64,000 nucleotides of DNA, taken from positions 496,001 through 560,000 of the forward strand of contig NW_026516211.1 in NCBI RefSeq assembly GCF_025602895.1, written 5' to 3'. Positions within the stretch are counted from its first letter, which is position 1. Each line of letters begins with the position of its first letter. The notes beneath the pieces are model-generated. The model was not told the origin of the DNA and searched no databases. It was given only the letters and a program-made list of their open reading frames with translations. This document shows, one piece after another, positions 4,958 to 41,196 of the stretch. The position numbers and the translations under genes are program-made. The DNA comes from Polychytrium aggregatum. Lineage: Eukaryota; Chytridiomycota; Chytridiomycetes; Polychytriales.

Positions 4958-6224
4958 GACGGGAATGTCCTCGTCTGCTGGGGCCGGGGCTGACGGTGGA
5001 TGGGAATATACGGACGAGGGTCGTTCGAGGACGAGGTCAAATCGGTGGAGTGTCGGGGGGAAGGATGGTCTGCCCCGATATTCAGCTGCACGCCATCGAG
5101 TTGTGGTGGACGGAGAACGACCCTGCTGGAGGGTTGCAGGACCCAAAGACGAACGAGGGGCGAGCGGATGCTGGTGCCGAGCAAGCGACGCTGTAAGAGA
5201 CGCTGTAAGAGTGGCGCTGTGAACTGCCTGTGACACAGACGGGGCTCCACAGACACTGTGGGGTGGGTCGCTGAGCGAGGTGGGTGACTGCGGGGTCACT
5301 GAGCAGCAGTGTCTGTGGTCGAGGTGCGTGGACAGTGGCTGGTGCTGAGCATGCACAGGAAGCGCGTGGTTGCGCGTACGTGTGCAACGATACGCGCGGC
5401 CAGCGATCCGTAGGCCGACAGCAGGCACGCGCCGCTGCAAACAACGCGCCTGGGCGTGCGGGCCACGCGCCCGGCTGTGCGGCAAGGACCAAGGAACCGC
5501 CGTGGGCTGAGTCAGGGTGACGGCCGGATAATGCGGCTGCATGTCCACTGGACGCGCACCGCTTGGCGGACACAGCCCCGGCCACGCGCCTGTTTGTTTG
5601 GGTCCGCGGACGCGTCGGTGTCGCCCTATCGGGCAATGGACCAGGGTCGGCGATTGGCAGGCCACAGACGCGGTCCAGCGCGCGTCCAGCAGATCCAGCG
5701 CCTCGGCACCAGCTGGTCTGGTGTTAGAAATGGATCTTGCGATCCATCTTTGCTCCAGCGCCGCAGCGAGTCGTGATGGAGTCGGTCAGTTGGGCGAATG
5801 TATTGGGCATTCAGAGCGACGATCGTCGTTCTTGGGTCGGTGCCATGCTTCGGACTGCGAATGCTGCAGCCAACGAAACTGCACCACCGAGACCAGGCGT
5901 GTGCTCGAATACCAAAGGACACTCCAACATTCGCACATTCCGACATTCCACGAGACTCCTCAAAAGCGTATGCAAACAATGTGAACGAATAGAAAGAAAG
6001 GAAATGAATGAAAGGGCTGCGGCTCCCTTGCGATGCAAACACGGCTACCATTTGCGCGGCACTCCTCCTGTCGCCCCAGGACTGTTCGGCTTTCGTCCTC
6101 TATTCATCTATTGCTGAGTGTGTCGTGGCGAGTCGCGCGGGGCTCGAGAATGCGGCCTCGTTGGCCATCGTATGTTGTGGGTGGCAAAGGATTTGCTCGG
6201 TCAGGGGGGGGGTCAGCAAATGCT
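4958..6224. other. Spacer between protease A and protease B
   Basis: About 1.27 kb of GC-rich sequence upstream of protease A and downstream of protease B. Several long frames run through it (one extends upstream of the protease A first exon), but they overlap on both strands and show no domain. It should contain the promoter of A, and possibly an unrecognised first exon with the missing signal peptide, plus the 3' UTR of B. Confidence 0.5.
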
Positions 6225-9200
6225 TCATCGTCTGGCTTGGTACTGGTTCGGATTGAATCCGTCGTCGTCCTCTTCGTCTTGCTGGAAGCGCCGCGCGCTA
6301 GGGTTCGCAGAGCGAGGGCTGCGAGCCTCGGAAGAGGCGTTGTTGCTGCTGGAATAGGGCGATAGGCGCTCGTTGCGACCGCTGCGGACATTGTCTTCAT
6401 AGCTTCCGCCATGGCCGCGCGAGCTGGCCGGCGCTCCCTGAGAACGCTCCGAGCGGCTGCCGTACTCGGATTGATCCTGGCCGCGCTGGCGGTTCGACCG
6501 GCTCTGGGAGCGCGAGGAGGGAGCCCCGCTACGAGTGTCGCTTCGACCAGATCGATCACGACCACTGCCTTGGTCCTCGTAGGAGCCTGTGCCGGCACTT
6601 CGGCCATATCGGTCGCCGCGTTCATAGCGCTCATCGCGGTTGTCACGGTCATAGCGATCGTTGCGGTTATCACGGTTATCACGGTCATAGCGGTCGTTGC
6701 GGTCGTTGCGGTCATAGCGGTCGCCACGTTGCTGATGTTCGTTGTCGTACACGGGCTGAGGGCTGGTCGGGTATCCAGATCGAGAGCGGGGCGTGTCTGA
6801 CGATGGGTTCGGCGAGCCGTATCGGCTGGCGGGCGACGTCACAGGCGCTGGCATAGACTTTTCCGAAAGTTCGCGATGGCGACGGCGACGGCGGCGACAG
6901 CAGCAGATCGAGCCAATGATCGACGACAACAGCAGGATGCCGACAGCCGCACAGACACCGATGAACAGATAGAGGTTGAAATACAGAGGGCCGATCTGGA
7001 TGTACTGGCTACCGCCGCCGATGATGGTCGCTCCGGCAGGGAGGTTGCTCTGGCCACTGCCAGTGCTACCGCAGCTGCAAGCAGACGAGACGGTCGAGTT
7101 TCCGGAGGTGAGAGCAGCGCCCTGGGCGGACGGTGCCAAGCCAACTTGGGTGTTCTTGGGGTCAAAGACTGTGTAGTATTTCCGGAGGAAGGTGTCGCCA
7201 AGAATGACGTCGGGGAACGTTCCGATGTTGGCGAACCCGAGGATGCAAGGGGAGTTGGACGAGGTAGGATCGCGGTACACATAATCGCTGGCTGTGGAGG
7301 AGTCGTCGTAATGAACCGAGTCAGGGCGCAACTAGAGTGTCGCAAGAGGTGACGCTCACTTCAACCTGGGATCGCAAGAGATGCCATGGATCAAGGGGGG
7401 GAGAGAGCATATCCACGGCTTCGGGTCTATGCTGAGCCAGACACGAGAATGAAAACGAACGAGACAGGCAGAATACAAATGGGGCTCCACACAGAAGAGG
7501 TGCTTACCAGTGAGAGGATAGGCAGCGGCCGGAGAGCCCAGCTGCAGGTTCATGGTCGGCATCTGACTGAGTGTCGAGCAGTCGACCGAAATCGTGCCAT
7601 CCTTCTGCGTGGTCACTGACGTGCCGATGCTGGCCATGACGGTTTGATACACCGCCGAGGGGAACCCAATGAACGAGGTGCCCGTGTCGAGAATAGCATG
7701 CTTGTTGCTGAACGGGAAAGTGATGTTCTGCGAGCCCATGAAAATCGACGGCATGCTGACACGCCAGTGGTCAAAGTTACCACTGGTGCTTGGAACAACG
7801 GGAGAGCTGTGGGATGAGGGATGAGGGATGTGGGATGAGGGATGAGGGATGAGGGATGAGGGATGAGGGATGAGGGATGAGGGATGAGGGATGAGGGATG
7901 AGGGACGTGGCCCATCAAGTTGTTTGGTCCGTGCACCGGATCGAGATCGGGAGTACATTCAGACATGTAACGAATGACGGGATGATCGTTGGATGTAGTT
8001 ATGATCGTTGAGTGTAGTTGTGATCGTTGTGTGTGGATACAAGCAGGTTAGCGATGTGTCGAGGCGCCCATGCACATTCCCGGCCTCTGGACCCCGCATT
8101 TTGTCGGCCAATGCTCATCCGAGGTCAAGGCACTCCCTGCGAGCCGCTCTTCTCAACAGTCATCGTACCATTGCAGTGAGCCAGTGAAATGGTTGGGGTT
8201 GCAGCCACCCAAAACCATCTCGCCTCCAGAAACGCTTGTTGAGCTGGCGCTACCGATCCAGAAGGCAAACGTGGCCGACGAGAAGACTTGCTGGAGGTTC
8301 TGGAAGGGCGGGGTAGGGCGGACGGAAGCTGGTGGAGTCGTCGAAGGTTAGAACGACGGGTTGATGATCGACCCGCACAGCACGATAGCCGGGTGTCGAC
8401 GACAGCGCAGTGTCGGTCGAGTACATGTAAATAGCCGCGGGCCGCACCACACGAGCAAACGAGCGACGCCCGATAGATGCGGATGCTTGTGAATACAATA
8501 GCTGCTCATCAGAAGCATGCAGGCAGACCCGACCCGCGCAATACATACCAGTTCCCGAGGCAAGAGATGGGAAGGCCAGACCCCAGATGCCATCCCAGCG
8601 GGTTCCAGAGCTGAGCTGGCTCGCCATGGCGGCATCAAGCTGGGTCGCCAAGAGAATGTCCTGTTTCTGGACGCTGATGCCGGCGACGCCAAAGGTGTCC
8701 TGGGCGAGATAGCCGCTGAGCGAGCCCGTGCCGTACTGGATGCTGACGCCGTTGCCGTTTGCCGTCTGGACATAAGTCGAGGAGCTGGTTGACGAGAAGG
8801 GATTGACGGTCGTGACCTTGGGGGTTGTCTGGGTCGTTGTGACCCACAGGTTGGCCGAGCCAGTGTCCAAGATGACCTGGAAGGCTTGCGGCGGGGTGCC
8901 CAGGGTGATATTACCCATGTACTGGAGCGGTAGGGAGCCATGTAAATCGATCAGAAATCGACCGGGTGCGAGCGGTAATTGACAGACTTGTACGGTCATC
9001 GGTCACGGTAGATGGCCATCGGTCGTGGGAGACGAGCCCAAGGCACCAATGCCGCTATACTTACAGACAAGTCGGCGCCGCTGATCAGGGATAGTCCAAC
9101 GGGCTGCACATGGGAGACAGAAGGCATAGCCGTCAGACCTGTTTCGACACGCTGGATGGGGCAGAGCAAGCAGGCCCCAGGACGCGAGCCGTCCACCGGC

Positions 9201-9646
9201 CAGTCGCTGGTATTTGGCATGGCCATAATGCTGCTTTGGCTGCCGGCGGCCTCGGGGGTTCAGCGCTCTGTCGCCGAGCGAGCGGGCGAGTGCAGGCTAC
9301 TCACGCCGAGGGATACAAAGCTCCGAGAGCTCGGGTCCTGCCCGTATCTTGAGAGGGTGAGCTGCAGCCGAGCAGCCATGCGGTCCTGGAAGCTGGCATT
9401 GCTGGAGCCCTGGGTGAACGGGGTAATGATGGCGGTTCCAGGCTCCTCAGACATGGCGATGGCGCTGGGAGAGAAGAGCCGAGCAAGTGAGTCCAGCGGC
9501 CAGAGTGCAGGGCGAGAAACAGTCGTTTGAGCAGGAGAGCCTGCGGGGCAAGGTCGATGCCTCGATGAGGCCGGTGGTGGCAGCGAGTCGTTGGCCGAAG
9601 CAGCGAGAGCAAGCTGCAGCCGGTCGACGAGGCAACTGGCAAACAT
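6225..9646 (-). CDS. Protease B: membrane-anchored pepsin-like aspartic protease
   Basis: Spliced model of 759 residues: exons 9646-9305, 9103-9065, 8921-8549, 8328-8169, 7806-7508 and 7291-6225, with the same phases (0,0,1,2,1) as its three neighbours. The chosen ATG gives a plausible signal peptide (MFASCLVDRLQLALAASA). An alternative 3' splice site near 9474 would give a different N-terminus. Catalytic motifs are ILDTGS near residue 146 and ILDTGT near 345, with flap YGTGS. A CSCG motif, then NLYLFIG leading into a membrane span near residues 510-535, is followed by CCCRRRRRR. The roughly 220-residue tail carries many Arg-Tyr-Asp/Asn-Arg-Asp repeats. Intron 4 contains a heptanucleotide tandem repeat. 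Expected to act at the cell surface, with the charged tail in the cytosol; substrate unknown. Confidence 0.92.
7810..7905. repeat. Heptanucleotide tandem repeat (GGGATGA)n in protease B intron 4
   Basis: About 13 near-perfect copies of a 7-base unit lie just upstream (in gene sense) of the exon 5 acceptor of protease B. On the minus strand the array is pyrimidine-rich (CATCCCT), so it doubles as an extended polypyrimidine tract before the CAG acceptor at 7807-7809. Confidence 0.95.
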
Positions 9647-10686
9647 CAACCGACGGCACCAAGGGGAGACGACAACGGGATGATGAGGATGGACAGGGCC
9701 CGAGCGGTGGAGGGTGACCTGCCCAACGGTGCGGCGAGCCAACGGAGGCAGCGGGCGGACGGGGACTTACGGGAGGAGACTGGCGGTGTCGATTGCAGAG
9801 GATAGACAAGTGTCTGGTGCAGACCAGAGATGATGATGATGATGCTGATGGCGACGGTGATGTCGCTGGACGGTGTTGCGGGTGACGGGACAGATGCAAA
9901 CGCAACTCTTGGCCAAATGGCAGCCAACCCAAACGACGCGGCCTTGCAAACCCTGCGCGGCTGTGCGTGGACAGTCGCTGCTGTGTCGTGCGGCGCGACG
10001 CTGTGCGACTCTGTGCGACACGCAAGAGCGTCAGCGGCGCGGAGGTTCTCGGTGCGGTCTCGGCGAGATCTCGGCGATTGCTGGTGTGGCCTTGGTGCAG
10101 TCTCGGTGCAGTCTCGGCGGTGTCGCGTCGCGTTGCCTCAGGGCTTCCGAGGCGCAGGGCCAACAAGGCAGCAACCCCACCACCACGCCTCCCCTCCACG
10201 GCAGATCGGATCACCTGCGGCGCCCCAGATCGAATCCTTCAGGCGCTGCTTCGGACATTTCATCCATTCACATCAGACACAGCAACAAAACGAGGTTCAG
10301 AAGAGCCAGCGGTCCCGCCAAGGGAGGGGGTCAAAACTCAGAGTTCAAGCCCAAGCCCGAGCCTGGGGGGAGAGAAGGCTGGTGAGAGAAGGAGGGCGAA
10401 AGAGAGGGAGAAAGAGCGAGCAAAGTTGTCTCAAAGAAAGATTACGACGACACCAAAGCGACACAGTACCCACGCCAAACACAAATACATTTAGACAAGC
10501 ACACGGACAATATACACCGGCAGGTGGAGGTGAGAAAGAGCAAGAGATAGCAGCTGGGAAGCAACTGGGAAGCGGCTGAGAAACAGAGGGCGATGCTTTG
10601 GGAAGGGGACAGGTCCGTCCAGGACAACGACATGAGCTGCAAATGCATCTAGCAGGACAGAGCAGGACAAGCACGACACAGTGCCA
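9647..10686. other. Spacer between protease B and protease C
   Basis: About 1 kb with no supported gene. It should hold the promoter of protease B and the 3' UTR of protease C. Frames seen here are GC-driven overlaps on both strands. Confidence 0.5.
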
Positions 10687-13600
10687 TCATCTTCGACCAC
10701 CTTGGCCGTTGTCTCGGCGTGTCTGAGGGTAGTCGTTGCGGCCTCGATTTCCACCATTATTGCTGCCTTGGGATCGGTCTGGACCATTCTGCGAGCGGCC
10801 GCTGTTGGAACGGTTGAGCGGTTGGCGCGAGCCCGCGCTGGGCGAACGGGCCGATGGTCGCTCCTGACGGTGCGGCGATGGTGATGCCCTGGACCGAGAT
10901 TCGACGGGCCGGTTGACGCCAGGGCGGCTGGCACCATTGGAGCCACTCGAGCCGTTGGGAGGGTATTTGGGTCGACCGTTGTTGCCATTGTTGTTGCTGT
11001 TGCTGCGATCTAGGTTGGTGTTGTTTCCTCGGCTGTTATTGCGACTGAGATTGGCGTTGTTTCCTCGGCTGTTGCTGCGGTCCAGGTTTCCGTTTCCGTT
11101 TCCATTGCCGTTGCCACCGCGTTGGCCTTTTCCGGGTGGGAGGGGCATAGGCGTCCTGGGACCCACGGGGCGCCGTCGCTTTCCACGGCGGGAATACAGC
11201 ACAACGCCCACAATGATGCCAATCAGTAGGAGAACCGAGCCCACGATTATGCCAATGAAGAGATATAGGTTCATGTAGACGCTGCCGAGCTTGATGGCGT
11301 TGGTGCCTCCGCCTATGACGGAGGAGCTCAGGGTGTTGGCGGAAGGAGCCTGGCCGGTGCCAACCGAGCCACAGGAGCAAGCCGCGGCCGTCGCGCCAGC
11401 GGCCAAAGCGGAGCCTTGGGCCGACGTAGCCAAGCCGATCTGCAAGTTGGTCGAATCGTAAACCGAATAGAACTTGCGAAGGAAGGTATCGCCAAGCACG
11501 ACTGTGGCAAAGTTGCCGTTGTTGAGGAGCCCAACCACGCAGCTTCCTCCCGAGGGGTAGACATAGTCGCTGCCTGGAGACACAGATAGATACAGATTCG
11601 ATGGCACAAATGGCGCAGGCCAGTTACGGGCATGTCAGCAGGATGTACGCCCGGTAGAACTGCGGTACGGCCTCACAGCAGGCTGCCTCTCTCGGGAGCC
11701 AATGGAGGCTTCGGAAATGCAGCTCAAGTCCTCGTACCTTTGAGCGTGAAGGTCGCGTTCTGGGAGCCAAGGCTGAAAGTCAGGTCGGGCAAGCTTGATG
11801 CGATTCCACAGTCAATCCTGCTCTGGCCACCGGTGATCGAGCTGAGGGAAGACCACACGCTGGTGTAGATGGCCTGTGGCAGGCCAATCACGGGTGCGCC
11901 CGAGTCAAGGATGGCAAAGTTGCTTCCGCTGGGGATGGTGATGGAGCTGGAGCCGAGCGTGATAGCGCTCATGAGCACACGCCAGTGGTCAGGCTGAGCC
12001 GAAAGCGTCGGCGGCAGGACCTGGAGGCTGAGAGAAAGCAGTCGTGATCAGAGCAGTGCCATGCCAGCAATCAATGAGGTGTTGCAGCTGGCAACACAAG
12101 ATGGGCTCGCAATTCAAGTTAGACTCTGTGGGCCAGACTTGGTCAACCTATTTTGGCAACGACCAGAACCAGAGCCAAGTGTTGCTTCGGTACGCAATGA
12201 GTGTCCTTGGGGAGATCCGGAGGTGTATAAGGCCGACATACCATTGCATCGTTCCCATAAAGTGGTTTGGATTGCATCCACCGACGACAAACTCGCCACC
12301 GCCGCCGCCGCCGCTGCTGCTGCTGGTACCGATCGCGTCAAGCCAGATGGCAAAGGATGCATTGGCGAAGGATGATCTCATGTTCCAGAACGGGGGCACT
12401 TGGCGGATACCGGAAGCTGTTGAGACCAAAACCATTTGATGAGTGGTTGCTGCGCAGTAGTACGATGAAGTGGCCGCGATAGACGGGGCTCACACTCTGC
12501 TTGAGCCAATGCTCGCTCATTATCGTCTCGTCTTGTCTGCTCCCTTCAAGCTATCCTGCTTACTCGTGGCGGTCGTGAGTCCGGGGAAAGCCAGTCCCCA
12601 GACACCATCCCATTTCGTGGCCCCGCTCGTCATCATGCTGACGAGGTTGGAATCGAGCTGGTTGGCGACGACAACGCTCTGGGGGCTGACGCTGGCGCCG
12701 ACGCCCGTGAACGTGTCCTGGGCAAGGTATCCAGATAGCGTGCCGGAGCCAAAGGAAACAGTAATCGAGTTGCCGTTGGGGACTTGGTTAAAGCTGGAGG
12801 ACTTTGTGGGGTCAAAGACGTTGCCGGCGGGGCTGGTTGGGTTGCAGCCGGTGCCGGTGACCCAAAAGTTGGCCGAGCCCGTGTCCAGAATGACGTTGAA
12901 CTGCTGAGACGGGGTACCGAGGCTGACGGAGATGAGGTACTATGGCGGAACAGAATCCGGAACAGCAATCCGAAGTGTCAGCGAGCAAGTCAGCGAGCAA
13001 GTCAGCGAGCAAGTCAGGGGGGAGGGGTCAAGCACTTCCCCAGCTCCTGTGCCAAGGGACACATCGATTACGGCGACAGCATCGACACACGGGCCCTGAG
13101 GACAGTACACGGCATTGAAGCGGCTGCGGGAGCACCTACCCCCAGATCAGCATCGTAGTTGATTCCTTGGCCGATCGGCTGAGTCGGAGCAAGGGCAAGC
13201 AAGTTGAGGAAGCCAAGAAGCGTTAGTCGGCCACCGGCACAACCACACACGATTTGAACCTCTATGGGTCCTGGGCACTGGGTGGTGCGTTCAGAGCACC
13301 CCTCCCGAATTCCCGCCCGGATTGGAGTATCGCTTCGAACATGGTCGGGCGACAGCAAAATCAACGGCAGCAATAATAAGGGCCCAGACACAGAGGCCCA
13401 GACCGGACCACGGGCAAGGCAAGGCAGGGCAGGGCGGAGGCGGCCGCTGCCATGACAACACCGGCCATGATCCAGCAGACCGTTCTCGGCAGCTCGACTT
13501 ACGCCAGACGCAGCAAATATGACGGGGCTGTGCTTGGACTCGGTCTGAGTCTCGGTGTCGGTGTCGGTGTCGGTGTTGGTCTCGGGCTGAGACGGGTCGG

Positions 13601-13748
13601 GGCTGTGGTTCTGCCGAGCAACGAGCCGAGCTAGGAGCCGCTGGTGCCGAGCATGAATACGGTCGGCAAGAGGCGCATCGCTGGTGCTGGCTCGCTTGAT
13701 GGGGACAGCGGCGACCCCAGAGGAGTCTCTAGGATGCTTCAGGAACAT
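10687..13748 (-). CDS. Protease C: divergent membrane-anchored pepsin-like protease
   Basis: Spliced model of 670 residues: exons 13748-13503, 13178-13140, 12939-12564, 12416-12242, 12027-11738 and 11573-10687, phases 0,0,1,2,1. The first catalytic motif is ILDTGS near residue 114. Two positions differ from the paralogs. The flap reads FGSG instead of YGTG/YGSG, replacing the usual flap tyrosine with phenylalanine, and the second motif is ILDSGA instead of ILDTGS/T. A DSG second motif occurs in some active family members such as BACE. A CSCG motif and NLYLFIG precede a span near 477-502, then a tail rich in Asn-Gly and Arg-Gly-Asn-Asn repeats, ending Gly-Arg-Arg. The ATG at 13748 is in frame but gives no clear signal peptide; an upstream exon is possible. 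It is probably an active or specialised protease, less certainly a pseudoenzyme. Confidence 0.88.
12978..13017. repeat. 12-base tandem repeat in protease C intron 2
   Basis: Three and a half copies of tcagcgagcaag lie within the intron between exons 2 and 3 of protease C. Confidence 0.9.
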
Positions 13749-14771
13749 TGGCCGGCGACAGACGATCCCAGACGCATGCGAGGATCGAGCAGAGGAGCCC
13801 AGGAAGCGAAGAAGACCAGAGGGCGGGGGCGGAAAGACCGGGAGCGAAAAGGAAGGGAAAGCCCCTCGGCGACAAGCGAGCGGGCCCATGTGCGCCGACC
13901 GACAGCACAGACAAGGCACAGCCGCGCCGAGAGACCGCGCAACTGCGACGCTGCACAGTCTGTTTGTACAGCAACAGCAGAGACTGCGCACTGCCAGCAG
14001 CACCACAAGCAGGGGCCGGACAGTGTCGCACAGGTGTAGCCGCGGGCTGCAACCAAGGTGGCTCCGGCACAGCCGCCGACAGAGAGTGTCTCGCGCCACG
14101 CACAGGGACTGTCGCGCTCAGCTGCACGCGTCGCTCGGCAGCACACGTTCCCCCACCGGCACCCCGTGCTGTGTCGGGCTGACTCACTGCCGCAACCCTG
14201 TCCCTTGTCGCAGGTGCTGTGCGACTTGCTGGAAGCGCGCCCCTCGCCCGGCAGACGCGCACAGCGCAACGCGTGCAGCCGGCTGCGCGAGAACGTCTGC
14301 ACAGAACCACTCGCTGCCGGGCTTGTCTGTGCGCAGCAGCTGCGGATGCGCATGCGCTGTTTCTGCGACTGGAGGCCGTGGCTCTGGGAATGGCGCCCCA
14401 GGCCGATGCTGCGAACGTGTCCGCTGCAGTGGCGAATTCAGTATCATTCGATGATTCATCGAGCGCGAACGTGTCCGGCCCAGTCGATCCACTGCGTTTT
14501 GTATTGGCTTCTCGAACGTCAAAAATGAGGGTGGTGTGCGTGTGTGGAAGGAAAAAAAGCGAGGCGACACCATTCCGGATGCAGAGAGGGTTCCGGGCGC
14601 CCTCCGAACGGGCTCGTTGTGGCCACCGTGCAGCGGCTTGGTGTCGAGCCGACAGGATCGTCCACCGAGTCCAATCCAAGCGAGACTGACGCGTCCATCG
14701 GCGCAATCGCTTTTCAATAAATAGAAGAGAGAGCGACATTTGATCGATTCATGCGTGTCACAGGCCCCAGG
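13749..14771. other. Spacer between protease C and protease D
   Basis: About 1 kb holding the presumed promoter and 5' UTR of protease C and the 3' end of protease D. No domain-bearing frame was found. The minus-strand frame upstream of the protease C start stays open for a long way and could hide its signal-peptide exon. Confidence 0.45.
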
Positions 14772-17700
14772 CTAGTAGTATCGTTCGCCGTTGTTCGCCT
14801 GGTACTGCGCGGGATAGCCCGGGTTGCCCCGACGACCGCCGCCGGTGTTCGCGCGATCCGTTGCGCCGTTGCGGGGCGAGTATGACTGCGGAACGAACGA
14901 CGGCGACTGGTCGTTGCGGTACGACTGCTGCTCGTATTGGTAGCGTTGATACTGATCGTACTGGTAGGGCTGCGGCTCGTGCTGGTATTGATACTGCCCC
15001 GAAGTTGCGTAGCCTTGCGGCGACGTTTCATACCCCGACGAGTACATCTGGCTTGGACTCGCGCTCGAATTGTATCCAGGCTTGATCCGACGGCTGCCGC
15101 GGCACCGTTTGAGGCACGACGCTGCGATCGACAGAACGATGATTGCCAGGATGCCGCAGATTCCGATAAACAGATACAGGTTGATGTACCAAGGCCCAAT
15201 GCGAATATACTGACTTCCACCACCGATGATGAGGTTGGTCAATCCACCAGCCGGATCAGCCGCCTGGCCAGTTCCCGATGCTCCGCATGAGCACGCGTTC
15301 GACGACGCTTGAGCGCCTGTGCCAAGGCCCTGTCCGCCAGATGACACCGCCAGGCCAACTTGGAGATTCGTGGTGTCGTAGACGCTGTAGTACTTGCGCA
15401 AGAAGGTGTCACCCAAGATGACGTCGGTAAAGGTGCCGACGTTGACAAATCCGAGAATACAGGGCTGAAGCATGGATGAGTCCTGGTAAATGTAGTCCCC
15501 CGCTGGAAGGTCCACAAGGGATCATCGATACAGGAGTGAGTAAAGTGTGTACAGCCCGTAGACATCGAGCATTAATGCCCGGCGTGCTTGTTGCAACGAG
15601 CGAGCATCACAGCGAGATATCAAGGCCCCTCCGCTTCTCCGTTGTTGCCAAGCCCGGCAACGTCACCCACCACCGGTCTGGCACGGCAATCCAACACGCG
15701 GCTACTCACGGGCAAGGGTGAAGGGCGAAGTTCCGAGAATAAAAGTGATGTTGGGCAGGGTGGTAATGACCGAGCAGTCGACCGCGAGCAGGCCGCCGCT
15801 CGTTGTTTGTGTTTTGAGCTGAAGCATTGGGATGAGGGCCGAGTAGATCGCACTCGGAAGCCCAACAAATGACGTGCCGGTATCGAGAATGGCATGTCGG
15901 TTCGAGACAGGCAGCGTCACGCTCGCGGAGCCCACCGTGATGTTGGGCATGTTGACTCGCCATTGATCTGGGCCCACAGGGCCTGGCACGACCGACATAC
16001 TGCGGCAGCGAGAATCAAATCGAATCGAAGGGAAGGATGCACAAATGCCATATAGCGCGTTAGTCACTGGAGCCTGGGAATAGCCACCGTCGGATTGAGA
16101 ACCGCCAGACCGAGAACCGAGCGACCCAAGCATATACAAGGTTGCTGAGGCGCATGCAAGGTTGCCGGAGGATGCACAAGGTTGCCAGAGTATGTACAAG
16201 GTTGTTCGAGCATGCAGCAGCACACATATATGGGAAGACACTACCCATACCGCACTGCTTACCACTGCAGCGACCCTGTGAAGTGGTTGGGGTTGCAACC
16301 GCCGAGCACCAGCTCTCCGCCGCCGGTTCCCGTGGACCCTGTAGTGTCGAGCCAGAAGGCAAACGTGGAGCTGGAGAATTGCTTGCCGAGATTGATGAAT
16401 GGTGGAATGGGCAAGCTGGCCAATTCTGACGAACCAGCAAGAAGATTGGATTGATTACCGGTGGGGAGGATAAAGGATCCATGTCAGCGCGCCAGTTGCA
16501 AAGGGTACTCCTCAGGGATGCTATCCGCGATGCTGCTCATGTTGCTGCACATAGCGCTGCCCAGGCTCATCCAGCACAGCACAACACAGCACAACACAGC
16601 ACAGCTTGAGACGACAGGATCGGCGGGCGTGCATCAGTTCCATCAACATACTTGTGCCCGCAGCCAGAGCCGGAAAGGCCATGCCCCAGATGCCGTCCCA
16701 CGAAGTGCCCGTGCCCATCTGGCCCGCAAGGGTCGAGTCGAGGCTGGTGGCCAGCATAAAGTCCTGTCCGGTCACGGAAAATCCGGACGCCGAGAAGGTA
16801 TCCTCGGCCAGAAAGCCGACCAAGGCGCCGCTTCCGTACTGGATTTTGACGCTGTCGCCGTTGGGTGTCTTGACATAGGTCGAGGATACTGCAGAGTTGA
16901 ACTTTTTCACGGCAGCGACTTGAGGCGTGGTCTGTGTCGTGGTGAGCCAGAGGTTGGCGGATCCCGTGTCGAGAATGACGGTGAACTGCTGGGCGGGAGT
17001 TCCCATCGAGATGGGAGCCATGTACTGCACAACATCAGAGCCACAGAGGATTCGGATCAGCGAGTGCCAGGTCGGGGGCGTGTGGCAGCAGGCTGCCAGG
17101 ACCACCAAAGACGAGAAGGCTCACAAGCATGTCATCTCGGCGACGGGCAAGCAAACAGCGGCGGTGGAGGCGGCGGGACATGGCAAGAGCGAAAAGCAGC
17201 AAGTGCGCCCAAGGCGGACTGGTGCTGAAGGGGAGATTGAGAACCGGAGACACGGCCAAGGGCAGTGGTGCCCGTGCTGGAACATGACTTCTCCAAGCCC
17301 CACAAAAGCTCTCCAGACGGCAGGGATCTTGTGCAAATCCGCATTGCATGTCGGACGGTGTTCTGGTGCAAGAAACCAGAGACCTGAGAAAGGCGATGGC
17401 TTTCCAGAAATAGGATGATACTCACAGACATATCACCGGCGTTGATCAGGGTTTGGCCAACAGGCTGGGACAATAATCCAAAGGAGCGTTAGGGGACGCT
17501 CATGGGAGATGGATATATCATGGTGAAATATGCAAAAGGCAGCATGATATCCAATCGATTCGGCGAGCGGAAGGGAGGTTCCGAGGAAGTGCGACGGACA
17601 CAAGAAGGCAGAGACGACGAAAGCGATACTCACGCCGGAGGCAGCAAGGACAAACGAGGACTGGTTGGATGCGCTGCTGTCACTGGAGTAGGCTGGATCA

Positions 17701-22000: not shown

Positions 22001-23038
22001 GACGTCGAGAAAGCAACGGTAGGAGGGGGGGTCGAGCGAATGGAGTTTGGAGGTGGGGCTGGGCCAAATGGAACAGGCAAGGGGTCTTTCTCTGATACCG
22101 ACTGCTTCCCTGCGAATGCCATATCGGGCTTTTATGGGGTCGCGGTGCACTGCCTCTGACTGCCCGGGCCATCGCTTCGCTCCATTTCTGCTCGGCGCCA
22201 TTTCCCGCCCGGACGTGTGTTTGGATTGCCCCCCTTCGCCATCCCACCACTGCCTCCTTTCCCACGAGCCACCGCCTCAGTGGTCGACATGACGGGTCAG
22301 AACAGCACTTTGCTGGTCACTGAAGCGCAACAGCCCACATGGATCCGACGACATTGGCGGGGATGGGGCAGTGGAGGATCAGGAGACCCGCAAGCGCGGG
22401 CTTGGAGCTGAGCCACTTCTTGGCATAACTGCAATTTCCCGCCAAACCCACCTGCGTTGCTCAACCCCACAATCGGACGACAAACAGCGCACTGGCCCAA
22501 TACTCGAGGGCCAGCAGGGATTGCAGCCGCACTGCCATCATCACGATTCGCGCTCCCACCATTATCACGATTGACACTCCCACCATTCGCGCTATCACTA
22601 TTCGCGCTATCACGGCTTGCACCGCCATCACTATTCGCATCGTGTTTCCCCGACGCGGCTCCCGATTCGCACTGCCACAAGCGAACCACTCCAGAACCAC
22701 AACCAGCCGGACAAGGCGCCGCCAACAGCGGCTGACCAATGCGGCTGTTCTGGGTGGGACCAGGGCTCATGCGATTGGCCAGACACCCCCCTCCGAAGTG
22801 GCACCAACGGAACGTGGATCATCTCGCGCCCTGTGATTGGTCCCGGCCCCAAGCGCCACATGTCGCTGCTGCGCATCCGCGTCCGGCCAATGCCGTCGCC
22901 GTGTGCCTCTCGTATTTACCCGTCCCGACTGGCTTCGATCCGTCCGTCGTCGTCTCCCTCTCTTGGCGCAATTCCTGCCTTGGCTCCCCATCTTCCTTCT
23001 CAACCGTCTCTTCTTCTCCGAATCGCTTCTCTGCCGCC
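22001..23038. promoter_or_regulatory. Divergent upstream region of the Cys-rich secreted gene and the CCC1-like gene
   Basis: About 1 kb between two divergent starts. Around 22545-22635 there are several partial copies of a motif built on atcac(g/t)att and attcgcgctatcac, which could be a transcription-factor site cluster. In fungi, vacuolar iron importers are often iron-regulated, but no specific GATA-type cluster was confirmed by eye. Confidence 0.5.
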
Positions 23039-23905
23039 ATGTCCCATCCCGAAGCATCAGCCTTCGCCGACCTCAATGCCTCGACCGACACCCACATCAT
23101 CAACCTCGACGCCTCGACCAGCACCCACCTCGCCGACGTCAAGGCCGAGAGCGAGTCCATCAAGTCTGTCGAAGGCCCTCTTGGCCTCGACCACCACCAC
23201 TACTCGCACCGAAGCCCCTGGCTGCGTGCCGCTGTCCTGGGTGCGAACGACGGGCTCGTCTCGGTCGGTGCCCTGCTCATCGGCGTTGTCGCTGCCGGCA
23301 CCTCCAACAGACCCACCTTCCTCGGCCCCGACCCTGTCGTTCTGGCGGGTCTTTCTGCTCTCATCGCCGGCGCCCTGTCGATGGCTCTCGGCGAGTATGT
23401 CTCGGTCGCTTCCCAAAAGGACTCGGAGCTGGCCGATCTGCGGCTCGAGCGCCTCGCTCACGAAGGCGGCCCGGAGCAGCGGCGCAAGGAGCTCGAGGAA
23501 CTCACCCGCATCTACATGAGCCGCGGCCTCGATCGCGAGCTCGCCAAGACCGTCGCCATCGAGCTCTCCAAGAACGACCCCGTTGCTACCCACGCCCGCG
23601 ACGAGCTCGGCATCGACGTCGACGACCTCACCAATCCCTTCCAGGCCGCCGTGACCTCGCTCCTGACCTTCTCTGTCGGAGCAGTGATGCCGCTGCTGGT
23701 TGTTATCTTTGCCAAGACGTTCCTGCTCCGGATTGTGCTTCTTGTCATTGTCAATCTCATCTTCCTGTTTGTTTTTGGTGCCGCCGGATCCTACCTCGGC
23801 GGTGCCCCGCTCTGGAAGGGTGCCCTGCGAGTCACCATCGGCGGCGGCATTGCCATGGGCGGCACCTATCTTGCTGGATTTGCATTCGGAACCGTGTCGT
23901 CCTGA
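23039..23905 (+). CDS. CCC1: CCC1/VIT1-family vacuolar iron (Fe2+/Mn2+) transporter
   Basis: Single-exon 288-residue protein. A polar N-terminus of about 58 residues leads into the first membrane helix with LGANDGLVSVGALLIGV, and the second carries GALSMALGEYVSVASQ. The conserved Asp and Met/Gly/Glu residues there are typical of the VIT1/CCC1 family. A charged cytosolic helical domain follows, rich in Glu and Arg (roughly residues 115-190), where the family binds metal. Three further hydrophobic segments end near the C-terminus. Family members load Fe2+ or Mn2+ into the vacuole in exchange for protons, detoxifying cytosolic iron. The ATG sits in a gccgccatg context. It is one of the few neighbours without an intron. 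Confidence 0.93.
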   Translation: MSHPEASAFADLNASTDTHIINLDASTSTHLADVKAESESIKSVEGPLGLDHHHYSHRSPWLRAAVLGANDGLVSVGALLIGVVAAGTSNRPTFLGPDPVVLAGLSALIAGALSMALGEYVSVASQKDSELADLRLERLAHEGGPEQRRKELEELTRIYMSRGLDRELAKTVAIELSKNDPVATHARDELGIDVDDLTNPFQAAVTSLLTFSVGAVMPLLVVIFAKTFLLRIVLLVIVNLIFLFVFGAAGSYLGGAPLWKGALRVTIGGGIAMGGTYLAGFAFGTVSS

Positions 23906-35771: not shown

Positions 35772-35953
35772 TGTTCTTGTGAGAACGTTGGCGTATGGAC
35801 TTTGCTGTAGACCCTTGGCGAGTGTATCGCGGTCGAGGTTTGTTTTGAATACGGATTCCTGAGCCAGAACAGCTTGATATGGATGATCAGGAGCGCATTC
35901 GAGGCCCATGAATACACGTGTTCTCCCGCTTTGGTATGGTACACTTTATTCAG
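35772..35953. other. Rab GAP 3' region and left flank of the Fanzor element
   Basis: This holds the 3' UTR of the Gyp7-like gene. At 35945-35950 the minus strand reads AATAAA, a polyadenylation signal for the leftward Fanzor transcript, placed just outside the putative element end. Confidence 0.55.
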
Positions 35954-35967
35954 AAAAAAACGGGACA
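35954..35967. repeat. Candidate terminal inverted repeat, Fanzor-gene side
   Basis: The sequence aaaaaaacgggaca pairs with 39420-39433 with one mismatch. It lies 73 bases beyond the Fanzor stop codon on the downstream side. Confidence 0.5.
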
Positions 35968-36042
35968 ATATAGCCGTTTCCATGAACATGTAGTATGTGC
36001 TGTGCTTGCGTCAAGCAAAGCCACAAGAAATAAAACAGATCA
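35954..36042 (-). ncRNA. Candidate Fanzor guide (omega) RNA region
   Basis: In Fanzor and TnpB systems the guide RNA scaffold overlaps the 3' end of the nuclease gene and runs to the element end, with the guide copied from the flanking DNA. Here that interval is the last bases of the Fanzor gene through the inverted repeat. It contains a perfect 6-base stem with a 3-base loop (tgcttg-cgt-caagca, 36003-36017). The guide would then be templated by the bases just left of 35954. This placement follows from family knowledge and position only; the scaffold probably extends further into the coding sequence. Confidence 0.4.
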
Positions 36043-38412
36043 CTTTGGCAGCCTCCGAGTGAAAACCGCCGGTCGCTCTCCGATCTCCACAATCGACCTG
36101 CACACTGTGATCATGTTGCGCGCCGCATTGACGTCGCGATTCCACACTGTCCGGCAGCTGGGATTCTTGCAGCTCCTGACAAAGTGGGAATTCGCAACAC
36201 TGGGCGCATCGAGTCCTTCCAACCGAACCGGCTCCAGGCACTTGGAGCACACTTGCGAGGTGTTGAACTCGTTCGTCGAGGCCACCTTGACACTTCCATG
36301 AGGGTGATTGGGACGGCGGCGGTGGTGCTCGAATTGCTCAAAGTACCGAGCAAATCGCTGCCTCCGAGGGCTGGATGCATAGCCCTTGCCTTGCCGCCAT
36401 GACGCATTGCCAAAGGCGATCACCACATCGGTCCGTATCGGGGCGTGCTTCAGGACGGCCTTGCACATCCTGTCGACGGCCACTTGGCGCCTCTTGTGGC
36501 CCATGAAGCGATGGTGACGAGTCTTCTTGCCAAGGCGGAAGTCGAGCTGCACTCGCAGCTCCGGTCGCAGGACATGGGTGAGATGGACCTTGAAAGCCTC
36601 CGAGGACGACACCTTGGGCGAGGGGGTGGACGACATCCAGGTCTCGATGCTGAGTCGATACTTCATGGTGTTGTGCCACTTGGTGTTGGACGTATGGCCA
36701 CACATTTGCTGGTAGTGGCCATTGGAGAATGAGACCACCTCGTCTTGGTGGCCCGGTGCTTGGATGACCGCCGTGAAGATGGAGCCGACTCCAGGATCGA
36801 TGCCAATCCAAGTGGTGCGACCGGGGTCTGGGTCGCCGATGTGGGCCTGGATGCGCTGCTCGGCAGTCGGAGGAGGCTCGATGGTCTCGGTGTGATCGGT
36901 TCGAGGCAGAAACTTGACGAGACCGATGGTGCATCCAATGCCATCGGTGCTGATCTCGTAGTTGAACAGCTTCTTGTTCACGTCCCGCTCTTGGAAGAGG
37001 GAACTACGCAGCTTGAAGCAACTGCGCCAGAGACGATCCTGGTTGTTGATGCCGTCATCACCTTCTTCCTTGAGCTTGTCCCTGGTGAGTCCAAGGCGCT
37101 TCTTTGGACCCAGGAGATTCCAAAGAGTAGCCGTGTCAATCTTGACATACTTGGCCCTTGCAGTGCATAGAGGAACTATCGTGCACACGGCCGGAGGAGT
37201 GTCCAGAGCGAGCTGCTTGAGTGCCCAGTTGATCCTGGCGGCCAGCTTGTTGATCTTGGACTTGGTGGTGCCGAGCTCAGACTTGGCCGTGGTGAGCCTC
37301 TTGTCGTCGGAGGGAATGCCTTGGGTAGTGAGCTTGTCCAGCTTGGCCTGGCGCTGCAGCTCGGTGACTCGGAGGGCGGGCATGTCACAGTCGATCCACT
37401 TGTGGACATTGTCGACCATCTTGTCTCGGGCGAGGATTCCCACATGGTGTGAGAGGCGGTGGAGGGCCCGGAAGCGGTCCTGGTCGTTGCTGTACCGAAA
37501 CTCGTCCAGGATGTGACCAAAGTCGGGGTAGAGGAACTCGAGATCGGCCTTGGGTGGAGTCTGCCCTGGTTTCTCGAAGAGCTCGAGACAGACCTCGATG
37601 GCTTCATGCTTGTGCTTGTTGGCTGGGAAGACGGCAGCGCAGAAGCGGCGAAGGAGTCGCCAGTAGGCCAGGTCGAGGTGGGTGGTGCAGTTGGTGGCAT
37701 AGGCATTGACAGCCAGTGTGAGAAGCTGACTGTGAGCACCATCAGGCAGACGAGGGGCCGGAGGCAGGTCTGCGTGCCGAGTGGTCTGATAGTCGCGAAA
37801 GGAAGCGACCAGATGCTCGTTGTATTTCTCATTGTCCCCGGTCGGCGAGAGGGCACCGGCCTCGACAATCGTGAAGCATTGGCGAACGAAAGCAGGGGTG
37901 GACTTGGAGATGACGGGGATGGGAAGATCCTGCTCGATGCACCGGAGGATATGCAGGTTGAGCAGCCTGGATGCCTCGAACTGGATCTGGGTCATGGCCT
38001 CGACGGTGGCCTGGGTCTTGTCGCGGAGAGCGGGATTGAGACAACAGCCATCCATCGTCTGCTTGAAGCAGCCGAACTGAGGGGCGGATGACCTTCCATC
38101 CACGAGTGGGACGACAGAACTCTTGAGGGGCCGGTATTTGGGACATTTGCTGGTGTTGCAACGTTCGTGATCGGTACCGTCGCACTGGCGACATCGCTTG
38201 CCGGTACTCGAGGAAGTAGATGGACCAGGCTCGGTGGGATCGACATCCATTGGATCTGCAGAAGCAGTGGTGGTGAGCGACGGAGCAACAGACGACCAAG
38301 CATGTGTGGGGTCAGAATACGAACCAGAGACAGGCTCCGACTGTGACTTGGCTTTCTTGGGCCTGGGTGGCCGAGGCTGGCCATCACCGGTACCCTTACG
38401 CTTCGGAGGCAT
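36040..38412 (-). CDS. Fz: Fanzor: eukaryotic TnpB-like RNA-guided DNA endonuclease
   Basis: Single uninterrupted 790-residue frame. The N-terminus is basic and nuclear-signal-like (PPKRKG, RPKKAK), then Ser/Pro-rich, with a Cys/His cluster at C74, C77, H82, C85 and C90. A largely helical region to about residue 530 should bind the guide RNA and target. The RuvC nuclease follows: RuvC-I GIDPG with Asp539; a beta strand VVIAFGNAS at 663-671 where bacterial TnpB carries its glutamate but this protein does not; Glu715 in TNEFNTS as the likely relocated RuvC-II glutamate; a zinc ribbon with C722, C725, C748 and C753; and RuvC-III NRDVNAARN with Asp760. All catalytic positions are intact. Fanzor proteins such as that of the chytrid Spizellomyces punctatus cut DNA guided by an element-encoded RNA. 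The ATG at 38412 follows a TATA-like box at 38541-38546. Activity and guide are untested here. Confidence 0.96.
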   Translation of the reverse strand: MPPKRKGTGDGQPRPPRPKKAKSQSEPVSGSYSDPTHAWSSVAPSLTTTASADPMDVDPTEPGPSTSSSTGKRCRQCDGTDHERCNTSKCPKYRPLKSSVVPLVDGRSSAPQFGCFKQTMDGCCLNPALRDKTQATVEAMTQIQFEASRLLNLHILRCIEQDLPIPVISKSTPAFVRQCFTIVEAGALSPTGDNEKYNEHLVASFRDYQTTRHADLPPAPRLPDGAHSQLLTLAVNAYATNCTTHLDLAYWRLLRRFCAAVFPANKHKHEAIEVCLELFEKPGQTPPKADLEFLYPDFGHILDEFRYSNDQDRFRALHRLSHHVGILARDKMVDNVHKWIDCDMPALRVTELQRQAKLDKLTTQGIPSDDKRLTTAKSELGTTKSKINKLAARINWALKQLALDTPPAVCTIVPLCTARAKYVKIDTATLWNLLGPKKRLGLTRDKLKEEGDDGINNQDRLWRSCFKLRSSLFQERDVNKKLFNYEISTDGIGCTIGLVKFLPRTDHTETIEPPPTAEQRIQAHIGDPDPGRTTWIGIDPGVGSIFTAVIQAPGHQDEVVSFSNGHYQQMCGHTSNTKWHNTMKYRLSIETWMSSTPSPKVSSSEAFKVHLTHVLRPELRVQLDFRLGKKTRHHRFMGHKRRQVAVDRMCKAVLKHAPIRTDVVIAFGNASWRQGKGYASSPRRQRFARYFEQFEHHRRRPNHPHGSVKVASTNEFNTSQVCSKCLEPVRLEGLDAPSVANSHFVRSCKNPSCRTVWNRDVNAARNMITVCRSIVEIGERPAVFTRRLPK

Positions 38413-38540
38413 GGGGGCAGAGGATGCTGGATGTCTGCCAGTGGTACTGGCCAGAGCAGAGACTTTTTTTATCGTACAATAGCGCGATGATCAGATCAAG
38501 GCGAGATGAGGGAAGAAAGCAGCAGGACGAAGGTGTGGCA

Positions 38541-38546
38541 TTTATA
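38541..38546 (-). promoter_or_regulatory. TATA-like box of the Fanzor gene
   Basis: The minus strand reads cgggTATAAAtgcc about 130 bases upstream of the Fanzor ATG. It suggests that Fanzor has its own promoter rather than depending on the transposase transcript. Confidence 0.5.
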
Positions 38547-38654
38547 CCCGAGAGCAGGAGCCCGTCTGCGCGGGCTGGTTGGGGAAGTGACCCTGTTCAA
38601 AAATCGCCGAGAGGTTCAAGCCAGGGATTTGAGCGCGAAAATGGCGGAGTGATT

Positions 38655-38717
38655 GGAGGGACTCAACCCCAAATTGGAGGAACTCAACCCCAAATCGGTG
38701 GGGACTCAACCCCAAAG
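38655..38717. repeat. Three tandem 21-22-base repeats at the transposase 3' end
   Basis: Three copies of a unit centred on actcaaccccaaa, separated by ttggagga and tcggtgggg. The rightmost copy overlaps the end of the transposase frame and supplies its stop codon. They sit between the two genes of the element. Confidence 0.93.
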
Positions 38718-39361
38718 AAGTTCTCGATGGGATTGTAGTCGGGTGAAGCAGGTGGGGTGAAGATCACTGACCACCCTCGGCGATCGATGCAGTACAGGAC
38801 AGGCATTGTCTTGTGCATGCTGACATCGTCCATCACAATCACAGAGTCGTCTGGGAAGCTCGCTCGCTCAAAGAACTCGACCATCGAGTGTGTCTTGAAT
38901 GATGTGGGGATGTACATGCGATGCAGCACACCAGAGTGGTTGATTGCAAATGCAGCCGAGACAGACTTGTGTTTCATGTGATTGCGCTGGCGAAGCGGAG
39001 CACCCTTCGGTGAGTATCCGTAGAGAGGGAAAATGGATCTCCTGATCCCTGTCTCATCGACAAAAACGAATCGTCGTGGGTCGATGGAACGGGTCTCGTC
39101 CCTGAACTGTGCCACTCGCTCATCCAGTCGCTTGGACTTGTAGAGGTGTGTGGCTCTCTTGTGAGAGAGACCTGCTCGGTGGATGGCAGTGTGGCAGAGT
39201 GAGAGTGATACTTTCCTCTGGAGGATGGACTCGAGCTTGCATCGCAACACAGGACCAGTCTGGAACGGGTCCTGTTCAATCAGGGTGCGAATGACTGGAC
39301 ATGCCTGCTCGAAGAAAGTGGATCTGCGAGCTGGGACCCGGGATGTGTGGCGAATGGTCAT
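38684..39361 (-). CDS. Tc1/mariner (IS630-like) DD34E transposase, probably truncated
   Basis: A 225-residue frame. A helix-turn-helix-like segment (residues 33-70) precedes the DDE catalytic core: Asp102 in FVDETGI, Asp178 in VMDDVSMHK and Glu213 in SPDYNPIEN. Exactly 34 residues separate the last two, which defines the DD34E class. The usual C-terminus after NPIEN.FG is missing: the frame runs into the tandem repeat at 38655-38717 and stops within 12 residues. The N-terminal DNA-binding region is also shorter than the roughly 330-350 residues usual for the family. It lies about 270 bases upstream of Fanzor on the same strand. The enzyme would cut and join transposon ends; the missing C-terminus makes activity doubtful. 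Confidence 0.88.
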   Translation of the reverse strand: MTIRHTSRVPARRSTFFEQACPVIRTLIEQDPFQTGPVLRCKLESILQRKVSLSLCHTAIHRAGLSHKRATHLYKSKRLDERVAQFRDETRSIDPRRFVFVDETGIRRSIFPLYGYSPKGAPLRQRNHMKHKSVSAAFAINHSGVLHRMYIPTSFKTHSMVEFFERASFPDDSVIVMDDVSMHKTMPVLYCIDRRGWSVIFTPPASPDYNPIENFFGVESPPIWG

Positions 39362-39419
39362 GGCTAGCGCGCGATAACATTGGGTAACAAAATATTCGAT
39401 GAATGGTCAAAATCCCGGG

Positions 39420-39433
39420 TGTCCCGTTTTATT
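39420..39433. repeat. Candidate terminal inverted repeat, transposase side
   Basis: The sequence tgtcccgttttatt is inverted relative to 35954-35967 with one mismatch. Just outside it, aaaaacggaac (39445-39455) forms a second, local inverted copy, so this end can fold into a hairpin. Confidence 0.5.
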
Positions 39434-40503
39434 GGATTGCCTGTAAAAACGGAACGAAACACACCATCCACCATGACCGTGGGGATTGATTGGCTGTGGA
39501 TACTACAGCGATTTCACGCGAGGAAACCGTCCTTCATTCACACAATCAGCCGCTCACACAGTGGTTCCCGTTGGTGTTTGGTTTAATTTCTTTTGATTTT
39601 TCTTTTTCTTTTCAACGACGAATATCATGGGTCGTTTTTGTGTGTTTGATCGCTCTAACATGGATGAATGGATGCATTTGGATAGATTCTTGAGGATTTG
39701 GGGGATTTGGGCCGAAAAAAAACAAAGTAGAAGAGGAAGGAGTGGCGTGCAACAAAATGGAAGTGAAGAAGAAAAACGAAAGAAAGAAATGCGATTGATA
39801 GTCTCAAAGAAGCACAGGACACGGGAAGAGGGAGGGGCCGGAGGTTACAAACGAGAAAGTGGATGCAAGCTAGCTTGGCGACACACACTATGCCCGGACC
39901 CCACGAGGGCCAGACGGAGCACAGCGGGTCGAGGAGGCGGTAGGCAGCGAGAGGTGGGGTGGGGAGAGTTGCAAGGCAAAACCAGCACTCTACCGAATGG
40001 AGATGCTGAAGGCAGACACAGCAATGTATGGATTGGTAGGCTAGCCCACCACCATTGCCAGAGAGCGAGAGAGCTGTCGAGCAACACCATACAAGCAGGT
40101 ACAAGAGGAGCCGAAAAATCGAGAGAGGGAGGGAGAAGGAGGAGGACGGCGGTGAGAGTAAGAGTTACTGCCAATAAATAGGAGTGAGATCGTGCTGAGA
40201 AGAAAAAAGTGCCAGATTGGATATGCAATGCGTGCGTGTGTATGTGCAGTTTTTTTTCTGTAAACAGAGAGGATCAAGAAGCGCAAGAAAGAGAAGCAAA
40301 AGTATGAGTTCGGAAAGATCAGGTTGGGTGGTGGGGGTGGAGCCAAGCAGTACTGGGGGCGGGGAGCAACGAGCGGCAACAACGGCAGCAGTGGGATGCA
40401 GAAGCAACACATTGGCGCCTTTGGTGGAGTAAGTATACAAGGACCGATGGAGCGGGAGGGGCTGCTTCATCACGCGCTTTTGCATCAAAGCGTATCCTGT
40501 CAA

Positions 40504-40590
40504 TGATGATGATGTTGTTGTGGTGGTTGTGGAGGTGGTGGAGGTGGTGGTGGTTGTGGTGGTTGTGGTGGTTGTGGTGGTTGTGGCTGT
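40504..40590. repeat. GGT/TGTGG-rich microsatellite
   Basis: A run of tgatgatgatg followed by many ggtggt and tgtggtggt units on the plus strand. Confidence 0.9.
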
Positions 40591-41042
40591 CCTTCTTTCT
40601 CTTCCTGCTGCTTCACCCACGGACAGATTAACCGAGCCGCGCCGGTAAGTTGCCGCGAGGGAGATAGCAGCTCCTACCCAAACCAGCAGGAGTAAGTGGC
40701 AAGCAATGAAAGAGAGAGAGAGAGCAAGGAGGTTGGTGGCGCTGTGTCTAGTTGAGCGGCGAGCCCCTGGTTTCTGAGTTTGGCGGTACTTGATTTTTGG
40801 GTTGCATTTTGGGTTGCATTTTTTCGTTTTTTTCATACGTGGGTGGGTCATGCGGGCTTCAAGCCCCTTGGCCTTGTGAGGATCAACGGAACTTTGGATG
40901 CAGGGGGGGGGCGGGTGGCGCCTTGCTGGACTTGGTGGCGACATGGAACGCGGCGAGGGATGCCAGCGGCCTCTGGTGGCGCAGGGTCAGTGCGGCTGGT
41001 TGGGGAACGATCGCCCAGCAGAGCAGGTCCGAGACACCGATC

Positions 41043-41127
41043 GCGCATGTTCCAAAGGAGACGGCGCATGTTCCAAAGGAGACGGCGCATGTTCCAAAGG
41101 AGACGGCGCATGTTCCAAAGGAGATTG
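41043..41127. repeat. 21-base tandem repeat, about four copies, 3' of the velvet gene
   Basis: The unit is gcgcatgttccaaaggagacg, the last copy degenerate (gattgcacatgttgcg). It lies 70-155 bases beyond the velvet stop codon (on the minus strand), so probably in its 3' UTR. Because 21 is divisible by 3, it is open in several frames. Confidence 0.95.
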
Positions 41128-41196
41128 CACATGTTGCGACGGGAACCACGCACGCACCCCCCCCCGAAGACATACCAGATGCGCCGGGCCTGCCGC

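Follow-up and report, generated by a model that had tools for sequence, protein, structure and literature searches.

A predicted Fanzor nuclease in a mosaic Tc1/mariner transposon family of the chytrid Polychytrium aggregatum

Introduction

What might a DNA transposon gain from carrying an RNA-guided nuclease? The biological role of Fanzor, the eukaryotic homologue of TnpB, is stated to be unknown by Saito et al. (2023; PMC10432273). The question is raised anew by a locus of the chytrid Polychytrium aggregatum, in a stretch of 64,000 nucleotides (assembly GCF_025602895.1, contig NW_026516211.1, positions 496,001 to 560,000 of the forward strand) that is called the window here and numbered from its first letter. 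An original prediction, made from the letters of the window and their open reading frames, had pointed to an intact Fanzor gene next to a transposase gene, with possible inverted ends around both. Judged from sequence comparison across the genome, the window element and its relatives most likely form a Tc1/mariner DNA transposon family that carries a DD34E transposase and a Fanzor1-type endonuclease. Two properties of this family, a one-sided insertion mark and a mosaic make-up of its copies, bear on what the nuclease may do.

The element and its two proteins

The ends of the element were set by aligning twenty 10-kb loci with the same Fanzor, the window copy included: one stretch is shared and the sequences diverge on both sides of it. 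By their flanks these loci (numbered L below, contigs being numbered C) represent 19 independent sites, since L018 and L019 show the same site on two different contigs. The element is bordered by TA on both sides at 18 of the 19 sites, and the remaining one has TA on the left and TG on the right. The element is closed by imperfect terminal inverted repeats (TIRs) of 24 and 26 nt (Table 1). The inverted ends suspected at 35954-35967 and 39420-39433 do pair (13/14 positions, 93%), but are only the inner part of these longer TIRs, and the true element ends, 35942-39443, lie outside them.

The 790-residue frame of the original prediction is unbroken, and the residues named there (D539, E715, C722, C725, C748, C753 and D760) all stand where it had placed them. 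The profile search that it had suggested gives a match of Pfam PF07282 (Cas12f1-like TNB zinc-ribbon domain) to residues 708-767, with an E-value of 6.2e-09 and 36.3 bits against a cut-off of 26.3; weak matches of the NCBIfam TnpB and PADLOC Cas12f models cover this stretch as well. The pattern described for Fanzor and TnpB, D-X(125,275)-[TS][TS]XX-C4 zinc finger-X(5,50)-RD (Bao and Jurka, 2013; PMC3627910), is found by regular expression from D529, the Asp of a second DPG, to D760, and the 178 residues between D539 and T718 also fall within its range. Two features are described as setting Fanzor apart from most TnpB proteins (PMC10711439), a DPG in RuvC-I and a catalytic Glu placed six residues ahead of the zinc finger, and both are seen here (D539-P540-G541; E715-x6-C722). 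The narrower CxxC-spacing pattern given in that paper for finding related TnpBs does not fit the window protein, in which the second pair is C-x4-C and the spacer is 22. On this set of motifs the protein is almost certainly a Fanzor, and its carriage by a non-IS607 DNA transposon, a Tc1/mariner element with TA duplications, fits an assignment to Fanzor1.

A second Fanzor family is present in the same genome (L117, C402:40000-43250), with 42% identity to the window Fanzor. The named catalytic residues, the zinc ribbon, the N-terminal basic tract and the Cys-Cys-His-Cys knuckle are all kept in L117, and its right end is related. In contrast to the window Fanzor, the frame of this family is longer, with 911 residues counted from the first Met up to where the examined stretch stops, and has two N-terminal zinc-knuckle-like motifs instead of one. 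When a profile of the two families was compared with solved chains, Spizellomyces punctatus Fanzor SpuFz1 (8gkh) came first with a weak score (E 0.023), followed by LaTranC (E 0.11, weak) and Guillardia theta Fanzor1 (GtFz1; E 1.8, not significant). The SpuFz1 alignment spans the expected zinc-ribbon and RuvC-III part (WNRD with W-RD). No relative turned up in viral contigs, whether these were scanned with the whole protein or with its last 100 residues. The PF07282 matches include several open frames of about 880-977 codons that may represent the L117 family.

The transposase announced on the same strand is recognizable by a DDE_3 match (E 6.6e-19), by an IS630 match (E 1.2e-25; 90.6 bits, under the cut-off of 100) and by the 34 residues between its second Asp and its Glu, but its frame is incomplete. 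It has 225 amino acids (aa), against 310 in full copies: a 43-aa block with the first helix-turn-helix (HTH) is deleted, and the frame stops in 21-nt repeats, 12 residues past the catalytic Glu, a form common to other copies. The 310-aa version is open in L018, L020, L023 and L027 and matches DDE_3 (PF13358) at E 5.7e-23 and HTH_23 weakly; its triad in L020 is D145, D221 and E256, with 34 residues between the last two, as in DD34E enzymes. A 325-codon stretch without a stop is present at 53 of the 150 listed DDE_3 places; second-contig copies and perhaps the second family are counted in these 53. Because its transposase has lost the HTH block and the C-terminus, the window copy is probably not autonomous, though its Fanzor is intact.

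Table 1. Features of the Fanzor-carrying element in the window.
Feature	Position	Strand	Basis
Tc1/mariner element with the Fanzor gene, 3502 nt in the window (~3.74 kb in full copies)	35942..39443	-	end-to-end locus comparison
Left-hand TA target-site duplication; the conserved T at 39446 comes before it on the - strand, with TTA as predicted target motif	39444..39445	.	
Left TIR, CAGGCAATCCAATAAAACGGGACA	39420..39443	-	
DD34E (IS630/Tc1/mariner) transposase frame, 225 aa, deletion derivative without first HTH block or C-terminus	38684..39361	-	
21-nt tandem repeats at the truncated 3' end of the transposase	38652..38715	-	
Fanzor gene, 790 aa, unbroken	36040..38412	-	frame call, Pfam match, motif check, family and structure-profile comparison
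Zinc-knuckle-like C74-x2-C77-x4-H82-x7-C90	38143..38193	-	named by motif only; kept in the 42%-identical second family
RuvC-I catalytic Asp539 of GIDPG	36796..36798	-	motif check and second-family comparison
RuvC-II 'alternative' Glu715, six residues ahead of the first zinc-ribbon Cys	36268..36270	-	signature in PMC10711439
Zinc ribbon Cys722, Cys725, Cys748, Cys753	36154..36249	-	Pfam match and motif check
RuvC-III Asp760	36133..36135	-	motif check and second-family comparison
3' region, Fanzor stop to right end; predicted omega-RNA scaffold, nucleotide diversity (pi) 0.0186	35942..36039	-	by comparison with SpuFz1
Right TIR (+ strand), CACTTTATTCAGAAAAAAACGGGACA	35942..35967	+	
TA target-site duplication, right end	35940..35941	.	
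Predicted guide, first 20 nt of right flank, CCATACCAAAGCGGGAGAAC	35920..35939	-	role by comparison with SpuFz1 and insect-virus Fanzor1

Copies and ghosts

At least 57 near-full-length copies of this Fanzor, the window included, are present in the genome, as judged from a protein search in which 57 of 1277 candidates were scored. All 57 cover the whole protein (one from residue 2) at 94-96% identity, the window itself aside, and 51 have no stop. Since the same gene recurs at these 57 places, the window frame is more than a chance opening. Exact 20-base left ends number 189 genome-wide, counting second-contig copies and deletion remnants, or ghosts. Three places (L114-L116) have 313-bp ghosts made of about 100 nt of left end and 216 nt of right end with an identical junction, and the ghost L062 has kept 210 nt of the left and 168 nt of the right; the ghosts thus far described retain the predicted guide-RNA end. 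An older related ghost of 350 bp lies in L025 (6435-6785), about 160 bp from the element and in the opposite orientation, flanked by TTA and GTGTA.

How often the two genes are open depends on how copies are picked. With sites chosen by Fanzor score, Fanzor is open at 18/19 and the 310-aa transposase at 4/19; among the first 12 chosen by left end, Fanzor is open in 5, three of them among the 10 that were read and two known from the protein search, and a full transposase is present in 2 of those 10. A special preservation of Fanzor over the transposase is not claimed, given the latter sample.

A one-sided insertion mark and the predicted guide

T stands ahead of the left TA at 18 of the 19 independent sites, in 10/10 further left ends (one of which repeats L012) and in 183 of the 189 exact left ends genome-wide, second-contig copies included, against a background of 12.2% of TA sites in the window. 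The next base outward is A or T in 36 of 45 left flanks (p ~3e-6 against 45%), 20 of these flanks having been picked for their T. Among the six left ends without T, two share one flank and one (C119) lies at a place where another contig has T. L025 lies in a 19-nt minisatellite, the unit of which can be rebuilt with a single TA, and the C before the TA matches the neighbouring unit; because this base fits the repeat, the base before TA belongs to the target and not to the element, as far as this one site tells. T-TA is present on one side only, as a Fanzor target motif would leave. Copies at four loci (L017, L052, L053 and L055) have only one flank in common, the left one in C23 and C346 and the right one in C23 and C334, as if by copy-copy recombination or contig chimerism.

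The SpuFz1 omega-RNA is described as 88-90 nt long, 14-15 nt of which are flank (PMC10432273), and insect-virus Fanzor1 RNAs as extending about 15 nt beyond the duplication (PMC10711439). By analogy, the right end of the window family would supply the scaffold and the adjoining flank the guide, with (A/T)TTA as the target motif, which we regard as quite probable. Over the 99 nt from the Fanzor stop to the right TA, nucleotide diversity (pi 0.0186) is lower than over the left 87 nt (0.0552) or at Fanzor synonymous sites (0.078). Covariation does not support the predicted fold of this region, in which 27 minor alleles fall in 62 paired columns and 27 in 42 unpaired ones. A search of 35800-39700 against Rfam gave four matches up to E 5, none at gathering score.

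Mosaic copies

Linkage was followed in 28 of the 30 element loci read at length; the ghost L062 was left out, as was L019, which repeats L018. Over 230 informative sites the mean squared correlation between sites (r2) falls from 0.20 for pairs up to 30 bp apart to 0.047 at 31-100 bp and to 0.038-0.045 at greater distances, close to the baseline of 0.037, a decay reached by none of 500 permutations. When the sites are restricted to the 73 transversions, r2 is 0.42 for pairs up to 15 bp apart and 0.03-0.06 past 30 bp, and all four gametes occur in 61-74% of pairs more than 15 bp apart. These data were compared with three clonal simulations with strong rate variation on the inferred tree, observed counts being taken over the last 2480 positions. 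For transversions, the simulations yield 8-12 sites and no more than 6 minimal recombination intervals, against 57 and 32 observed; for all sites, they yield 85-93 sites and 45-53 intervals, against 172 and 92. In addition, the C-terminal truncation of the transposase is scattered across the Fanzor tree.

A single place illustrates what such exchange may look like. L015 and L049 are one site on two contigs, with a full element in one and a ghost in the other. Their flanks differ by 1 mismatch and 2 gaps in about 260 positions and their left ends at 0/100. The right ends, compared over about 215 positions, differ by 4 mismatches and 1 gap, and two of these differences adjoin the deletion junction. 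The pattern fits a replacement of the element interior from another copy.

Retention by re-cutting and its alternatives

We propose that Fanzor re-cuts empty sites and that repair copies the element into them, a model that, taken as a whole, we moderately favour. An RNA from the right end (3' untranslated region and TIR), running some 15-20 nt into the flank, would guide Fanzor to the empty site, which would read (A/T)TTA followed by the guide. The occupied site would be spared, since the guide there is preceded by GTGTA and the motif is lacking. The transposase would excise the element, Fanzor would cut the emptied or uninserted site, and repair from another copy would restore or spread the element. 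Transposase-defective copies and ghosts would persist through this Fanzor-driven repair, and copies would swap short tracts. That Fanzor is indeed the cause of both retention and mosaicism is a tentative claim, more doubtful than probable; if true, RNA-guided copying shapes eukaryotic transposon families. Unlikely, although worth stating, is the strongest form, in which Fanzor would act as an RNA-guided copying engine: successful insertions would be limited to (A/T)TTA in one orientation, and repair from templates would be so frequent that the dispersed copies act as one recombining pool, sustained even by copies without a transposase and by ghosts reduced to the guide. If that were so, the family would preserve in its genome a natural record of what Fanzor does. 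Within the terms searched, the open-access literature gave no paper on RNA-guided copying shaping transposon families, and among the papers listed for Fanzor with gene conversion none, judged by title, concerned copies of Fanzor elements.

Several observations weigh against this model. Folding of the right-end RNA barely beats that of shuffled sequences (z-scores of -1.7 and -1.8), two related right ends fold at +1.6 and 0.0, and no compensatory pairs were seen in 44 aligned sequences (45 right ends were gathered and one was dropped for want of an anchor). The ratio of 183:6 would also be expected if the T were a fixed part of the element and had mutated in about 3% of copies. No empty site appeared among the matches listed for the 21 of 27 joined-flank sites searched; 15 of the 21 are bracketed by a second contig, which has an element of similar length in 12, internal deletions in two (C156, ~0.3 kb; C93, ~1.1 kb) and flanks 32 kb apart in C14. 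Many copies are dead, as the sample not picked by Fanzor makes plain. The clonal simulations also have low r2 (0.06-0.09), without a drop with distance, and four gametes in 37-49% of all-site pairs. Recurrent mutation can therefore produce some of the pattern, and of the two comparisons only that of transversions is strong. Finally, hAT elements, sought as a Fanzor-free comparison family, had no match in this genome or in control genomes.

The alternative that survives best is that the mosaics arose without Fanzor, through gap repair induced by the transposase, through ectopic gene conversion in general or through the emission of copies by a source population with much recombination, to which we give close to an even chance. 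For DNA transposons, the repair of double-strand gaps from other copies is an established process, and the loss of linkage spans the whole element, not the right end alone; nothing decisive speaks against this explanation. Less probable is that the T on one side reflects the target that the transposase or the asymmetric ends prefer, Fanzor being irrelevant to where copies persist. Such a preference would agree with the T at nearly all insertions examined for this transposase and with the TTA at related ends. TA is palindromic, however, and a symmetric preference should put A on the right flank too, whereas A occupies the mirror position (+1) in only 16 of 57, near background; an end-tied target preference is unusual for Tc1/mariner elements.

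It is improbable that the mosaic pattern is an artefact of assembly or polishing, a concern raised by the very many similar copies. Same-site copies on different contigs agree (1 difference in 3743 element bases for L018/L019; 4 in 600 plus one gap for L012/L035), far below the divergence of about 4% between sites, albeit the two contigs of L018/L019 could be one locus assembled twice.

Selection on the proteins was assessed in two sets. Among 18 copies picked by Fanzor score (153 pairs), the ratio of nonsynonymous to synonymous polymorphism (pN/pS) in Fanzor is 0.29. In nine copies picked by left end, the tenth, L062, being a ghost and left out, private Fanzor changes have a nonsynonymous to synonymous ratio of 0.57, with 2 stops and 8 frameshift indels, and private transposase changes one of 0.29, from only 23 changes. 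Both genes look to have been constrained until recently, many copies now being broken. That Fanzor is a mere passenger without nuclease activity, as the frameshifts or stops of many copies might suggest, is the least probable alternative in view of both Fanzor ratios, of the catalytic positions, all retained in the window protein, and of their conservation in the 42%-identical family. By its sequence the window protein may be an active nuclease, as the frame is open and the family has the pN/pS given for copies picked by Fanzor score.

Other features of the genome and the window

Elsewhere in the genome, L118 (C379:92650-94350, minus strand) has one 477-aa frame in which a MerR-like HTH and a serine-recombinase-like start are fused to a TnpB/Fanzor2-like protein. 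The start resembles IS607 TnpA by eye, the MerR match being weak, and the TnpB/Fanzor2-like part has a DPG and OrfB_IS605 and TNB domains; frames of 477 codons scoring equally occur at two places in C124 and two in C379. At least two families with a long terminal repeat (LTR)-like integrase are present as well. Their matches come in long series of identical score, with open frames of 1361 and 1498 codons, which suggests that they were active recently.

Within the window, short tandem repeats with 9-nt and 21-nt units lie beside the element (40505-40594 and 41043-41147). Four similar segments about 4 kb apart at 3466-16700 (families D4 and D5) are perhaps a tandem gene cluster, and 22739-23905 and 6225-7331 hold a VIT-family frame (E 1.8e-61) and a eukaryotic aspartyl-protease fragment, respectively.

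Comparison with known systems

RNA-guided cutting has likewise been proposed to aid the retention or spread of HUH-transposase systems with a right-end guide RNA. In those systems the single-strand transposase recognises the motif itself, whereas the window family has a DDE transposase and a palindromic TA target.

The closest parallel among Fanzors is SPu-1 of Spizellomyces punctatus, the source of SpuFz1 (Bao and Jurka, 2013; Saito et al., 2023). It too is described with a Fanzor1, putative TA duplications, TIRs, several intact copies, ghosts with the right end, and conserved bases before the left end that match a measured motif: the conserved CA before its 5' inverted repeat agrees with the motif CATA (PMC10432273). 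The inverted repeats of SPu-1 are reported in that source to enclose no transposase, whereas many copies of the window family carry one; furthermore, SpuFz1 has 633 aa and recognises CATA, against 790 aa and a predicted (A/T)TTA here.

The Mariner elements PUl-1 and PGv-1 join a Mariner-like transposase to a Fanzor1 with TA duplications, as the window family does (Bao and Jurka, 2013; PMC3627910). PGv-1 is reported there as single-copy, in contrast to the highly repeated and mosaic window family. Fanzor1 in Mariner elements has thus been known since 2013, and the window family is a new family of a known kind. Within a single genome it brings together a transposase, a Fanzor, a region predicted to yield the guide, ghosts and a great number of insertion sites; its one-sided motif can be directly tested as a cleavage motif, and its landing sites and shuffled sequences offer a test of Fanzor's natural role.

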